From Chondrocystis sp. NIES-4102 (lineage in GTDB: Bacteria; Cyanobacteriota; Cyanobacteriia; Cyanobacteriales; Xenococcaceae): DNA of 64,000 nt. Positions within the stretch are counted from its first letter, which is position 1; every line of letters starts with the position of its first letter. The stretch lies in assembly GCA_002368355.1 (NCBI GenBank), contig AP018281.1:1-64000 (forward strand). The letters are read 5' to 3'. The translations under genes and the position numbers were made by a program. Of the stretch, positions 10,424 to 16,493 are shown one piece after another. The notes under the pieces are model-generated. The model saw only the letters and a list, made by a program, of their open reading frames with translations, was not told the origin of the DNA and did not search any database.

Positions 10424-10498
10424 TGGGTAGTAGGTAGTAGGTAGTAGGTAGTGGGGGTTTGGGTAGTAGGAAATAGGTAGTAGGTAGTAGGAAAGGAG
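10424..10498. repeat. GGTAGTA heptamer tandem repeat
   Basis: Two short arrays of a 7-bp GGTAGTA unit, separated by a G-rich interruption, follow the binding-protein gene. They resemble the short tandemly repeated repetitive (STRR) heptamers described in cyanobacteria. Confidence 0.75.
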
Positions 10499-10545
10499 TA
10501 ATCCCACAAGGGGACAATGAGAGTAATCCCACAAGGGGACAATGA
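10496..10545. repeat. Two perfect tandem copies of a 25-bp repeat
   Basis: The unit starts GAGTAATCCCACAAGGGG and ends ACAATGA. Copies are 10496-10520 and 10521-10545, followed by GAGTAACGAG. A third copy with the same flank lies at 59857-59881. Confidence 0.9.
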
Positions 10546-10645
10546 GAGTAACGAGTCTGGTAGTAGGAGTAGTAGTTAAAACTAAAAGCGTATTGCTAAA
10601 AGCGTATTGCTAGTCCGTGATAGATAAAATAATTATCAACTAGTA

Positions 10646-11056
10646 TTATTTGTTATTTTCCAACCAAGCAAGTATCATCGCTGGTAAATCAATTCTTTTC
10701 CTCACTTGAGGATTAATACAAACATGACGGGTTTGAGCGTGGGCAACAAGTTGATTTAAATTATTAAGATTATAAATTTTATAGGCGATCGCAAACTCAC
10801 TTTGACTAATCAAATTAGCTACCAGGGTTATTTGTATTTGATCATTACAAAATAGAGGCAAGAAAAAATCAATTTCTGCATGGGTAACTGGTAAAGCAAT
10901 TTCTCCTGCTTGCAATATCTCTTGTAAACTAATATCTGCTTGAGCTAAAGACTCCTCATAAGCTTCGTGACAGATGTTAATTAATTGGGCAAAATAAACA
11001 ACTCCAGCAGCATCAGTATCACCTAAATAAATCCTGCGAGTATGATTAAAAATCAT
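10646..11056 (-). CDS. 1,4-dihydroxy-2-naphthoyl-CoA hydrolase-like hot-dog thioesterase
   Basis: A 136-residue hot-dog thioesterase. The motif YLGDTDAAGVVYFAQLINICHEAYE is the 4-hydroxybenzoyl-CoA-thioesterase signature with its catalytic Asp in GDTDAAG. Proteins of this type and length in cyanobacteria (Slr0204 group) hydrolyse DHNA-CoA in phylloquinone synthesis. The window also encodes MenE (61708-63117), an earlier step of that pathway, though not adjacent. A general acyl-CoA thioesterase role cannot be excluded. The gene is divergent from the guanidine operon, and the spacer between them holds that operon's promoter. Confidence 0.85.
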   Translation of the reverse strand: MIFNHTRRIYLGDTDAAGVVYFAQLINICHEAYEESLAQADISLQEILQAGEIALPVTHAEIDFFLPLFCNDQIQITLVANLISQSEFAIAYKIYNLNNLNQLVAHAQTRHVCINPQVRKRIDLPAMILAWLENNK

Positions 11057-11150: not shown

Positions 11151-11192
11151 GTACAATTTATTACTTTTTATAATTTTAAACTTTGCTACATT
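11151..11192 (+). promoter_or_regulatory. Canonical NtcA-activated promoter of the guanidine operon
   Basis: GTA at 11151-11153, eight bases, TAC at 11162-11164, 22 bases, then TACATT at 11187-11192. This fits exactly the class II NtcA promoter pattern GTA-N8-TAC-N22-24-TAN3T known from cyanobacterial nitrogen genes. Transcription should begin shortly after, upstream of the riboswitch. NtcA control is inferred from this match alone. Confidence 0.72.
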
Positions 11193-11235
11193 TAGAGCCA
11201 TAAAATATATTAAGATAATTCAAATTATGAACTGC

Positions 11236-11335
11236 TTCTAGGGTTCCGATTTAACTAGCGTTTTAAATGCCTGGTCCAAGAGAAGCAAGCCAATAGTTAT
11301 TATTGGCTACACGGCGGGATAAAAGCCCGGGAGAT
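11236..11335 (+). ncRNA. Guanidine-I riboswitch (ykkC RNA)
   Basis: The conserved blocks of the ykkC/guanidine-I aptamer appear in order: TTCTAGGGTTCCG, CTGGTCCAAGAGAAGC, a variable hairpin (CCAATAGTTATTATTGG), and ACGGCGGGATAAAAGCCCGG with GAGA after it. The class binds guanidinium and switches on detoxification or degradation genes. It lies between the NtcA promoter and gdmH, as expected for an ON switch of guanidine degradation. Confidence 0.95.
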
Positions 11336-11385
11336 ATTAGTGATCTACACAACATAGGTCATCAAGTCTCCTGGGTTTTGTTTTT
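11326..11385 (+). terminator. Riboswitch expression-platform terminator
   Basis: CCCGGGAGA (11326-11334) pairs with TCTCCTGGG (11367-11375, one G.T pair) and is followed by TTTTGTTTTT. The 5' arm overlaps the last conserved block of the aptamer, so guanidine binding should sequester it and allow read-through into gdmH. Confidence 0.88.
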
Positions 11386-11424: not shown

Positions 11425-12606
11425 ATGAGTGAACAACCATCATTCCAGCCCTCAGATAACAATCAATCAGAAGCCAAACAAGCCTTAGAAAAAGAATTAA
11501 AATTACCTTTAACTGGGTGGCAACAAGAAGTTGATCGAGGATTAGAATTAGGTTTAGAAGCAGCCCCAAGTATTCGCGATCGCAGTATCCCTACCTTTTC
11601 TCGTGGAGAATTACCTCACTATGCAGGTATTAATACCTTTCTCAAAGCTCCTTATTTAGAAGATGTCCGTAAAGTCGGAGAATATGACATCGCTATTATG
11701 GGAGTACCTCATGATTCTGGTACAACCTATCGTCCTGGCACACGTTTTGGCCCCCAAGGCATTCGGCGTATTTCAGCTTTATATACCCCCTATAACTTTG
11801 AATTAGGAGTTGATTTACGTGAACAAATTACCCTCTGTGATGTTGGCGATGTGTTCACCATTCCAGCTAATAATGAGAAATCTTTTGATCAAATTTCCAA
11901 AGGAGTTGCACACGTTTTTAGCTCTGGAGCATTTCCAATCATTTTGGGTGGTGATCATTCAATTGGCTTCCCCACGGTTAGAGGCGTTTGTCGCCATTTA
12001 GGAGATAAAAAAGTTGGTATTATTCACTTTGATCGCCATGTGGATACTCAAGAAACCGATTTAGACGAAAGAATGCACACTTGTCCTTGGTTTCACGCTA
12101 CTAATATAGCTAATGCCCCTGCTAAAAATCTAGTCCAGTTAGGTATTGGCGGTTGGCAAGTACCACGTGAGGGGGTTAAAGTCTGTCGCGAAAGAGCTAC
12201 AAATATTCTTACCGTTACAGATATTACCGACATGGGGTTGGATGCAGCAGCAGATTTCGCCATAGAAAAAGCTACAGATGGTACTGATTGTGTCTATATC
12301 AGTTTTGATATTGATTGCATAGATGCAGGATTTGTACCTGGTACAGGTTGGCCCGAACCTGGTGGTTTATTGCCCCGCGAAGCACTCTATCTACTCAAAA
12401 AAATTGTGCAAAATGCCCCCATTTGCGGATTAGAAATAGTGGAAGTATCCCCCCCGTACGATGTCAGTGATATGACCTCCCTAATGGCAACTAGGGTTAT
12501 CTGTGATACAATGGCGCATTTAGTAGTTTCAGGACAATTACCCAGAAAAGAGAAACCTGCATATATTCATAGTGAAGCTCAAGTGGTAGATGAACCTTGG
12601 CAGTAA
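11425..12606 (+). CDS. gdmH: Nickel-dependent guanidine hydrolase (ureohydrolase family)
   Basis: A 393-residue cytosolic enzyme, probably hydrolysing guanidine to urea and ammonia. The ureohydrolase fold gives the binuclear-metal ligands His178 (GGDHS), Asp203, His205 and Asp207 (FDRHVDTQ), and Asp295 and Asp297 (SFDIDCIDAGF). HFDRHVDTQ and DIDCIDAGFVPGTGWPEPGG differ from ordinary agmatinase motifs (FDAHxD, DxDxxDPxxAPG) and match the Sll1077 type shown to be a Ni-dependent guanidine hydrolase. Automatic tools often call this agmatinase. An N-terminal extension of about 80 residues precedes the core, as in that group. The guanidine riboswitch upstream and nickel chaperones downstream support the assignment. 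Confidence 0.93.
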   Translation: MSEQPSFQPSDNNQSEAKQALEKELKLPLTGWQQEVDRGLELGLEAAPSIRDRSIPTFSRGELPHYAGINTFLKAPYLEDVRKVGEYDIAIMGVPHDSGTTYRPGTRFGPQGIRRISALYTPYNFELGVDLREQITLCDVGDVFTIPANNEKSFDQISKGVAHVFSSGAFPIILGGDHSIGFPTVRGVCRHLGDKKVGIIHFDRHVDTQETDLDERMHTCPWFHATNIANAPAKNLVQLGIGGWQVPREGVKVCRERATNILTVTDITDMGLDAAADFAIEKATDGTDCVYISFDIDCIDAGFVPGTGWPEPGGLLPREALYLLKKIVQNAPICGLEIVEVSPPYDVSDMTSLMATRVICDTMAHLVVSGQLPRKEKPAYIHSEAQVVDEPWQ

Positions 12607-12631: not shown

Positions 12632-12988
12632 ATGCACGAAACCGATATGACCAAAGCTTTAATTCTAACTGTTAAAGATTGGTACGACTCACAATTAGAA
12701 AAGCCCAAAATTGAGAAAATTCATTTGCTAGTCGGGGAATTTACGTGTGTAGAACCTGTTAGCTTGAAATTTGCCTTTGAAGCTCAAGCTAGCAATACTT
12801 TTCTTGAAAATGTGGAATTAGTAATTAAGGAAAAGCCATTAATTGCTTTTTGTCATCATTGTCAAAGGGAATATCGACCAGAAATAGGCATTCAATATGC
12901 TTGTCCTGATTGTAATTGCCCAATGGAAGATATTCGATCAGGTAGGGAATTAAAAATTGAACGCTTGGAATATTCATCTAACTATTAA
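12632..12988 (+). CDS. hypA: Nickel metallochaperone HypA (guanidine-operon copy)
   Basis: A 118-residue nickel-delivery protein. It begins MHETD, where His2 and Glu3 are the Ni-binding residues of the family, and has a zinc-finger with two CxxC pairs (CHHC and CPDC, about residues 74-94). HypA usually matures NiFe hydrogenase with HypB. Here it lies 25 bp after gdmH and 8 bp before hypB with no hydrogenase gene nearby, so it most likely loads nickel into the guanidine hydrolase, as proposed for the equivalent Synechocystis genes. Confidence 0.95.
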
Positions 12989-12996
12989 CTAAAATT

Positions 12997-13665
12997 ATGC
13001 ACCAAACTTTCGACGCAGCATTAGAAATTAACCTACTTCATGTTAATCAAGATGGTGCTAACCATAATCGTCAACACTTCGATAATTGGGGTATTACTTG
13101 TCTCAACATTATGAGTAGCCCTGGTGCTGGAAAAACCGTTTTACTCGAAAAGACCCTGGCTGCTTTACAGGATAAGCTACAAATTGCGGTCATTGAAGGA
13201 GATATGACGACAGAACTAGATGCCGATCGCCTGCGTCAATATAATGTGCCAGTGATTGCAATTAATACTGGACGTTCCTGTCATTTGGATTCCAAAATGG
13301 TAGCAGGAGGAATTCATATTTTAGAACAGCAATATAATCCTCAAAATATTGATTTAGTTTTGGTGGAAAATGTCGGAAATTTAGTATGTCCTGCCGAATT
13401 TGAAGTAGGAGAACATGGTAAAGTTGCTCTATTAAGTGTTACCGAAGGTGAAGATAAACCCTTAAAGTATCCAGTCATGTTTCGCGAAGCTAATTGTTTA
13501 TTAATCACAAAAATTGACCTTGCGCCTCATTTAGATATTGACATAGATCGTCTAATTGACAATGTACGTCAAATTAATCCCAAGGTCACAATCATTTCTT
13601 TATCTGCTAAAACAGGAGAAGGTTTAGAGCAATGGCTCAATTGGATAGAGAAACAAATTAAGTAA
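12997..13665 (+). CDS. hypB: Nickel-insertion GTPase HypB (guanidine-operon copy)
   Basis: A 222-residue GTPase that drives nickel transfer. The P-loop is [14 protein letters not shown] (about residue 41). [13 protein letters not shown], the inter-motif [13 protein letters not shown] with metal-binding Cys and His, and [13 protein letters not shown] (NKxD-like) follow in order. It lacks the His-rich stretch and the CxxCGC N-terminal nickel site of some HypB proteins, so it depends on HypA for nickel supply. It is in the gdmH-hypA-hypB transcript and precedes an ABC importer by 28 bp. Confidence 0.95.
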
Positions 13666-13693: not shown

Positions 13694-14737
13694 ATGCAGC
13701 TAATCAAATCTTGCCGTTCTTATATTACATTATTCGCTGTCACTCTACTTTTAGTAGTTAGTTGTTCTAACCCTGCGACTAAAATTCCCACCGACACCGC
13801 AACTCCTCCCGTGGCAGCTAATGCAGTACGCTTGGGGTACAGTGCTTGGCCAGGTTGGTTTCCTTGGAAAGTTGCCGAACAACAACAAATATTTGCACAG
13901 AATAATGTTCCTGTAGAACTTACTTGGTTTGATGGTTATCTCGAATCTATTAGCGCACTAACCGCACAACAAATTGATGGTAATGGTCAAACCTTGGGAG
14001 ATACGGTAAGTTCAGTATCAGGTGGTGCTGATCAGGTAATTGTTTTAGTAAATGATAATTCCACAGGCAATGACAAGATAATTGTTGCCCCCGAAATTAA
14101 CACCATTGCCGATCTCAAAGGTAAGAAAGTAGCAGTAGAAGAAGGAACTGTTGATCATTTCCTATTGCTTCAAGGATTAAAGAGAGCAGGATTATCTGGA
14201 GAAGACATTGAATTGATACCTCTAGAAACAGGTAAAGCAGCCTCCGCTTTTGTTGCAGGACAAGTAGATGCCGTAGCGGTATTTGCCCCCTATACCACTC
14301 AAGCATTCAAACGTCCACAAAGCAAAGAACTATTTAGTTCTAAAGATTTCCCAGGGTCAATTTCCGATCATTTAGTCTTTACTCGTAGTTTTATCGATGA
14401 AAACCCCCAACAAGTACAGGCGATCGTAGATTCGTGGTTTACGACCCTGGAATATATTGAAAATAATCCCGATCAAGCCTATCAAATCATGGCACAAAGG
14501 GCAGGGGTGAGTGTAGAAGAATATCAATCCTATGCTGAAGGGACTAAGATCTTTACCTTAGATGAAAACCTCAAGGCTTTTGAGCCTGGCAATGATCTAA
14601 ATTCTTTATCATTTGCTGCCAAGAAAATGGCGGAATTTCTCGTGGAGGTAGGCTTTACTCCATCCCTACCAGATACCAGCCAACTTTTTGACCCTCGCTT
14701 TGTTCAAGCCTACGCTGCTAAACATCAAAACTCCTAA
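13694..14737 (+). CDS. Lipoprotein substrate-binding protein of the guanidine-locus ABC importer
   Basis: A 347-residue NMT1/SsuA/TauA-type binding protein. It has a lipoprotein signal with lipobox VVSC (lipidated Cys24), then a Pro/Thr-rich linker. The core shows VRLGYSAWPGWFPWKVAEQQ, NGQTLGDTVSSVSGGADQ and DLKGKKVAVEEGTVDHFLLLQGL. Family members bind taurine, nitrate or thiamine-precursor-like ligands. In this operon, behind a guanidine riboswitch, the ligand is most likely guanidine or a related cation; the corresponding Synechocystis transporter has been reported to import guanidine. It is followed by the permease gene after 4 bp. Confidence 0.88.
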   Translation: MQLIKSCRSYITLFAVTLLLVVSCSNPATKIPTDTATPPVAANAVRLGYSAWPGWFPWKVAEQQQIFAQNNVPVELTWFDGYLESISALTAQQIDGNGQTLGDTVSSVSGGADQVIVLVNDNSTGNDKIIVAPEINTIADLKGKKVAVEEGTVDHFLLLQGLKRAGLSGEDIELIPLETGKAASAFVAGQVDAVAVFAPYTTQAFKRPQSKELFSSKDFPGSISDHLVFTRSFIDENPQQVQAIVDSWFTTLEYIENNPDQAYQIMAQRAGVSVEEYQSYAEGTKIFTLDENLKAFEPGNDLNSLSFAAKKMAEFLVEVGFTPSLPDTSQLFDPRFVQAYAAKHQNS

Positions 14738-14741
14738 AATT

Positions 14742-15593
14742 ATGAATCATCAAAATGGACATAGATCAAGTAGCTCCCTAAATAAATCTAAAACCCTTCG
14801 TCCTACAGTTTTTTGGCGGTTAGCAGAAGATATTCCCCAACCCCTTAGTACCTCTTTAATAATTACTTCCATCGCCTTACCCCTAATTTTATGGTGGATG
14901 GTTACAACCTTGAGTAATATTGACCCCAAATTTTTGCCCTCTCCAGCTAATGTTTGGTCAGCCTTTATTCGCTTATGGTCTAGTGGTGAACTGATTCAAG
15001 ATACTGTTGCCAGTTTATGGCGAGTGGGTATAGGGTTTGGTTTAGCATTATTACTTGCTATTCCTGTGGGCATTTTAATGGGTGCTTTTGCTAGTATTCG
15101 TGCTTTAGTTGAACCTTTATTCGGTTTGATACGCTATATGCCCGCCCCTGCTTTTATTCCCCTATTAATTTTATATTTGGGCATTGGTGAAGAAGCAAAA
15201 ATTGCTTTAATTTTTATCGGTGTTTTCTTCTTTATTTCTCTAATGGTGATGGATACGGTAAAGTTTGTCCCTAAAGATTTAATTGAAGCAACTTATATTT
15301 TAGGTGGTAACCGTTTGGCAGTTTTGAAAAGAGTAATTCTACCCTATGTTTTGCCAGGAATTATTGACGCTTGCAGAATTAATTTAGCTGCTGCTTGGCA
15401 ATTAGTTATTGTCTCAGAATTGATTGCTGCTAATGAAGGTTTAGGTCGTCGGATTAGTGTGGCGGGTAGATTTCTCAAAACTGATGAAATTTTTGTGGGT
15501 TTAATTGTGATCGGGATCATTGGACTAATTTTTGATTTAGTTTTTCAATATCTTTTAAGAGTTACTTGTAAATGGTCAAGTCTCAAGGGTTAA
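14742..15593 (+). CDS. ABC importer permease (guanidine locus)
   Basis: A 283-residue inner-membrane permease of the nitrate/sulfonate/taurine class. It has about six hydrophobic segments and the EAA loop (IEATYILGGNRLAVLKRVILPYVLPGI) that docks the ATPase. I chose the ATG at 14742, four bases after the binding-protein stop, rather than an upstream TTG overlapping that gene. It partners the preceding binding protein and the following ATPase. Confidence 0.92.
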   Translation: MNHQNGHRSSSSLNKSKTLRPTVFWRLAEDIPQPLSTSLIITSIALPLILWWMVTTLSNIDPKFLPSPANVWSAFIRLWSSGELIQDTVASLWRVGIGFGLALLLAIPVGILMGAFASIRALVEPLFGLIRYMPAPAFIPLLILYLGIGEEAKIALIFIGVFFFISLMVMDTVKFVPKDLIEATYILGGNRLAVLKRVILPYVLPGIIDACRINLAAAWQLVIVSELIAANEGLGRRISVAGRFLKTDEIFVGLIVIGIIGLIFDLVFQYLLRVTCKWSSLKG

Positions 15594-15716: not shown

Positions 15717-16493
15717 ATGTTTTTACAAATAGATCACCTTCATAAGCATTTTGCAACTAAAAATGGCAATTTAATTGTCCTTAAAGAAATAAATATGGCG
15801 ATCGCCAAAGGAGAATTTATCTGTACAGTGGGTGCATCAGGTTCGGGAAAATCTACTCTTCTGCGTCAAATTGCAGGACTAGATACCCCAACCAGTGGGC
15901 ATGTGAGAATCAATAATCAACCGATAAAAGGCCCAGGTCCAGACCGTGGTATGGTTTTTCAACAATACACACTTTATCCTTGGATGAATGTGCAGGAAAA
16001 TACAGAATTTGGTTTGAAACTTCAAGGTATACCTGCAAAACAAAGAAAAGAACAGGCAAGTTATTACTTAAACGTCGTTGGCTTAAGTCAATTTGCACGC
16101 TTATTACCACAGGAATTATCTGGTGGGATGAAACAAAGGGTAGCGATCGCTCGTGCTTTAGCTTCAGAACCACAAATCCTCTTGATGGATGAACCTTTTG
16201 GGGCTTTGGATCTGCATACAAGGGAGTCTATGCACGAATTTATTCTCGATCTTTGGCAGCGTACAGGTATTACTGTATTTATGATTACTCACGATGTGGA
16301 AGAAGCGGTTTTTCTCTCCAATCGAATTTACGCTTTAGGTTCACGTCCTGGTACTGTTCGCAAAGAGATTACTATTCAATTGCCAGAACGCACTCAAACA
16401 ATTAAACGTCATTCTATATTTCACGATTATCGAGATGAATTGATGGCTTTAATGCGTCAGCACGGAAAAGAGGCACTTGCAGCAATAGCTTAA
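15717..16493 (+). CDS. ABC importer ATPase (guanidine locus)
   Basis: A 258-residue ATPase of the nitrate/taurine (NrtD/TauB) class. Walker A GASGSGKS (about residue 40), Q-loop QQYTLYPWM, signature LSGGMKQRVAIARA, Walker B ILLMDEPFG and the H-loop THDVEEA are all intact. It energises uptake with the two preceding genes. A 123-bp AT-rich spacer separates it from the permease gene and contains a TTGACA that could be an internal promoter, though no good -10 follows. It is the last gene of the guanidine locus. Confidence 0.93.
   Translation: MFLQIDHLHKHFATKNGNLIVLKEINMAIAKGEFICTVGASGSGKSTLLRQIAGLDTPTSGHVRINNQPIKGPGPDRGMVFQQYTLYPWMNVQENTEFGLKLQGIPAKQRKEQASYYLNVVGLSQFARLLPQELSGGMKQRVAIARALASEPQILLMDEPFGALDLHTRESMHEFILDLWQRTGITVFMITHDVEEAVFLSNRIYALGSRPGTVRKEITIQLPERTQTIKRHSIFHDYRDELMALMRQHGKEALAAIA

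Follow-up and report, generated by a model that had tools for sequence, protein, structure and literature searches.

The guanidine hydrolase operon of Chondrocystis sp. NIES-4102 is most likely (with a probability of about 0.84) transcribed from a class II NtcA-dependent promoter directly upstream of its guanidine-I riboswitch, an arrangement which would act as a two-input AND gate. Because an NtcA-type site stands in front of a guanidine-sensing RNA, the genes for guanidine use should be expressed only if nitrogen is short and guanidine is available. That NtcA is the regulator and that control is dual were at first guesses from a single sequence; it is the comparison across loci, rather than the pattern alone, that settles the case as far as sequence can.

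Candidate promoter, riboswitch and operon

In the window, the whole stretch of 64,000 nucleotides that was analysed, the candidate NtcA-type binding site GTACAATTTATTAC occupies positions 11151-11164 of the plus strand, with GTA at 11151-11153 and TAC at 11162-11164 on either side of N8; its bases were read directly, and pattern statistics and a promoter scan were applied to it. It is followed after exactly 22 bases by TACATT (11187-11192, plus strand), a -10 box of the form TAN3T, for which offset statistics were used in addition to the bases and the scan. Class II NtcA promoters are described in the accessible part of PMC3898017 as a GTAN8TAC centred near -41.5 with a TAN3T box about 22 bases away. 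Both sequence features are present here, and with the centre of the site set at -41.5 this geometry predicts a transcription start at 11198-11199 on the plus strand. The sequence-only reading had called the promoter perfect: letter by letter, GTA-N8-TAC, the 22 bases and TACATT are as claimed at 11151-11192, and the word is justified for GTA and TAC, for the spacing and for the TAN3T box but not for the inner bases, which are unusual and with which the 26-base site ranks only 59th of 71 related sites in a leave-one-out score.

The Guanidine-I (ykkC) riboswitch aptamer (RF00442) lies at 11227-11335 on the plus strand with an Rfam score of 97.2 bits (E 1.8e-16, cut-off 63), the sole copy found by the RF00442 search of this genome, and the predicted leader would start about 28 bases 5' of it. 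The expression platform is a strong intrinsic terminator (11322-11385, plus strand; fold -29.4 kcal/mol, z -6.9) with its T run at about 11376-11385; its 5' arm (11322-11335) overlaps the conserved 3' end of the aptamer. The following genes, all on the plus strand, encode the guanidine hydrolase GdmH, a member of the ureohydrolase family and ortholog of sll1077 (11425-12606), a hypA-type (12632-12988) and a hypB-type (12997-13665) nickel chaperone, an ABC transporter substrate-binding protein of the SsuA family which is the probable guanidine importer (13694-14737), the ABC transporter permease (14745-15593, with the start chosen at ATG 14745) and the ABC transporter ATPase (15717-16493). The three-gene ABC transporter is of the SsuA/Tau kind, and the order gdmH-hypA-hypB-ABC matches that of the guanidine-assimilation operon. 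Outside this system lies a divergent YbgC/FadM-type thioesterase gene (10646-11056, minus strand). Short tandem GTAGGTA-like and AGTAATCCCACAAGGGGACAATGAG repeats are found between two genes at 10427-10560 of the window.

NtcA binding, the start site and the way in which this organism responds to each of the two signals are what we infer from this arrangement. NtcA acts with 2-oxoglutarate and PipX; under nitrogen shortage it would bind 11151-11164 and bring RNA polymerase to the -10 box (from 11187), with the start near 11198/11199. The nascent leader would then fold into the aptamer. With guanidine absent, the 3' end of the aptamer would be drawn into the terminator (11322-11385) and transcription would stop; with guanidine present, the aptamer would be held together, the terminator prevented and gdmH-hypA-hypB-ABC made. 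As the terminator is built on the 3' end of the aptamer, nitrogen status would set initiation and guanidine would set elongation, and the two inputs, nitrogen need and substrate, would multiply as in an AND gate.

Conservation of the site and its spacing

By itself the 42-base pattern is weak evidence and not significant, because 0.74 chance matches are expected per window and the inner bases are poor: the window holds 2 matches, and 14 of 100 shuffled windows hold at least as many. Significance from the pattern alone was rejected on this chance expectation. The sequence elements, their spacing and the terminator can be read directly, as can their conservation, for which the riboswitch comparison was confined to cyanobacterial loci. 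RF00442 is present in 40 of 60 relatives and, in a class-wide search, in 159 of 290 genomes, from which only 29 new loci were read; 80 named gdmH loci were also taken, 10 of them without an aptamer in the upstream bases read. The resulting 139 loci contain 134 aptamers, 125 of them unique, and 118 upstreams were kept after dropping near-identical or short ones, namely 97 that are gdmH-linked (a set from which loci L170-L183 are excluded) and 21 others.

In 19 of the first 30 loci GTAN8TAC precedes the aptamer by 40-100 bases, and in 14 of the 19 it stands at -57 to -59. Of the 97 non-redundant gdmH-linked loci, 62 have the site in the last 130 bases before the aptamer, while each of ten other spacers (N3-N7, N9-N13) is found in 1-4 of the 97 and each of eleven other palindromic N8 triplet patterns in 0-9. 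It precedes the aptamer in 9 of the 21 loci that are not gdmH-linked, and a TPP riboswitch in 2 of 28 control loci (28 of 30 used, from the same set of relatives). Of 71 sites, 32 are followed by TAN3T at offset 22 and 5 at offset 23, against an average of 1.58 for other offsets, and the complete class II pattern with a spacing of 22-23 is present in 31 of 97 loci, where wrong site spacers give 1, 0, 0 and 0. The distance from site to aptamer ranges from -44 to -116 with the site-to-box spacing constant at 22; in the window the site is at -76, the usual position in relatives being -57 to -59. The exact site occurs at gdmH loci in ten of the 22 family codes, in the window's own family at 10 of 14 gdmH loci, and a similar terminator arrangement is seen in 67 of the 97 gdmH loci by a crude test.

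The exact site is absent from 35 of the 97 gdmH-linked loci. Ten of these have GTAN8CAC instead (other spacers 0-4), including four loci of family f34, whose small genomes look like those of marine picocyanobacteria; in family f45 only 1 of 6 loci has the exact site. In L063, L069, L071 and L073 a conserved GTAN8CAC at -47/-48 has GACAGT or GAAAGT 22 bases further on, a combination that reads as a relaxed variant of this promoter. Eight Nostocales-type loci (L131, L135, L138, L140, L150, L158, L163, L165) carry GTAN8TAC at about -95 to -98 and no TAN3T at 19-26 past the site; by eye, Nostocales-type loci show TATAAA about 38 bases past GTAN8TAC, possibly another promoter class. That the NtcA/guanidine-I AND gate is conserved across cyanobacteria, with GTAN8CAC in small-genome (picocyanobacteria-like) lineages and a re-spaced site in Nostocales, has slightly better than even odds.

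Other arrangements were seen along the way. L067, L068 and L075 hold divergent pairs of guanidine-I riboswitches on opposite strands, about 235-271 bases apart, with a single GTAN8TAC palindrome between the two; one riboswitch precedes a urea-carboxylase-associated-type gene, which by eye we take to be a probable carboxyguanidine deiminase, and the other an ABC substrate-binding gene. In L043, L053, L080 and L159 the guanidine-I riboswitch precedes what looks by eye, from the translation, like a sodium:solute-symporter gene, with a class II NtcA-type promoter of spacing 22 at L053.

NtcA in this genome and competing explanations

The genome encodes NtcA (385 bits). The pattern matches 67 times in its 5.0 Mb, as opposed to 38 times for a backwards-read control; of 50 distinct sites examined, a rough test places 21 within reading frames, and the intergenic ones include those of gdmH, nirA (ferredoxin-nitrite reductase), urtA (urea transporter) and an aliphatic amidase gene. 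According to the accessible part of PMC3898017, nirA and urtA are canonical NtcA targets. The upstream stretch of glnA that was inspected has no exact class II site, and GTAACATCGACAAC was noticed there by eye only. At 4480854-4480895 on the minus strand (L236) a class II pattern begins 159 bases before the aliphatic amidase gene, a candidate NtcA target. The reading as a class II NtcA promoter is supported by position-specific conservation in many genera, the same-genome controls nirA and urtA and the presence of NtcA; dual control by nitrogen and ligand gains from the same evidence, from the terminator expression platform and from the published ammonium repression in Synechocystis.

A model of the promoter built from 31 other loci (training scores 12.2-34.4) ranks the 11151 promoter best in the intergenic region with 18.6, a score reached by none of 300 Markov-simulated copies of that region, with the caveat that its training set demanded the exact pattern and so favours 11151. 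The runner-up, with 6.2, is the main rival: a second, degenerate candidate site TTAAACTTTGCTAC (11176-11189, plus strand; TTA-N8-TAC) which has one defining base wrong and overlaps the -10 box. It could be the working NtcA site and the ortholog of the site at about -58 in relatives, 11151-11164 being an additional upstream site; TACATT would then be the right half of a site (relatives read TACATTTTT) and transcription would start at about 11217-11224. An alignment with six relatives does set their site opposite 11176-11189, which at -51 from the aptamer has the more usual distance, and the exact site of the window scores low among its kind (59 of 71) and lies farther out (-76). The broken defining base, the much lower scan score and the lack of a good -10 box at 22 make this unlikely, and it would shift the start by about 20 bases and leave NtcA as the likely regulator.

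An explanation without NtcA has a lower probability still. The match would be a product of chance and guanidine the only control, the operon being read from a standard promoter of the sigma-70 type, for instance TTGCTA-N17-TATATT (11183-11211). The chance expectation per window and the 35 of 97 relatives without the exact site are in its favour, and the sigma-70 promoter does match at 9 of 12 positions, but such matches are about as frequent here as in shuffles (3 versus 2.0), and the enrichment and fixed spacing across genera count against chance. Least credible is that the target of the site is the divergent thioesterase gene, whose start is 95 bases away, or that NtcA is a repressor here; the palindromic form of the site is in favour of this, but the -10 box at 22 is on the gdmH side. 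None of the 123 related loci searched has a match to the thioesterase, and the site persists in them; the NtcA-type site therefore travels with gdmH, and the thioesterase was rejected as its target.

Comparison with known systems

Guanidine riboswitches have long been regarded mainly as detoxification switches. A nitrogen-limitation promoter before a guanidine riboswitch in many genera would make guanidine a regulated nitrogen source, and if the gate is indeed conserved, cyanobacteria would treat guanidine primarily as a nitrogen source, its toxicity coming second. This predicts little induction by guanidine while ammonium is present, and has a bearing on expression tools made from the guanidine riboswitch and on the natural occurrence of free guanidine.

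In aptamer, gene and gene order the operon resembles the Guanidine-I riboswitch of Synechocystis sll1077 (gdmH) and the genes sll1077-1082, as described in the accessible parts of PMC8390497 and PMC10094980; unlike the candidate here, an NtcA-type promoter is not described for sll1077 in those parts of PMC8390497. Excess ammonium represses sll1077-1082, and the portion of PMC10094980 that was available reports this repression as dependent on Slr1821 and does not state NtcA control of the operon. The repression is as expected from the proposed gate, the requirement for Slr1821 aside. The guanidine and gdmH literature, partially covered, yielded no statement on NtcA control of gdmH, which is no proof of novelty.

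NtcA and a glutamine riboswitch act jointly on one gif gene, a precedent for placing a nitrogen gene of cyanobacteria under both kinds of control. In the gif case NtcA is a repressor and glutamine the ligand, whereas here NtcA should be an activator, with the substrate guanidine as the ligand; the gif genes, NtcA and the glutamine riboswitch class are described in PMC6698751, as far as its accessible part goes. The geometry of GTAN8TAC and TAN3T is that of the NtcA class II promoters of nirA, urtA, glnA and ntcB, with the difference that their start feeds a plain 5' UTR and the one predicted here a ligand-sensing leader. The components are all of known kinds, and the NtcA-type promoter before a guanidine-I riboswitch appears to be a new and widely conserved example of their combination.
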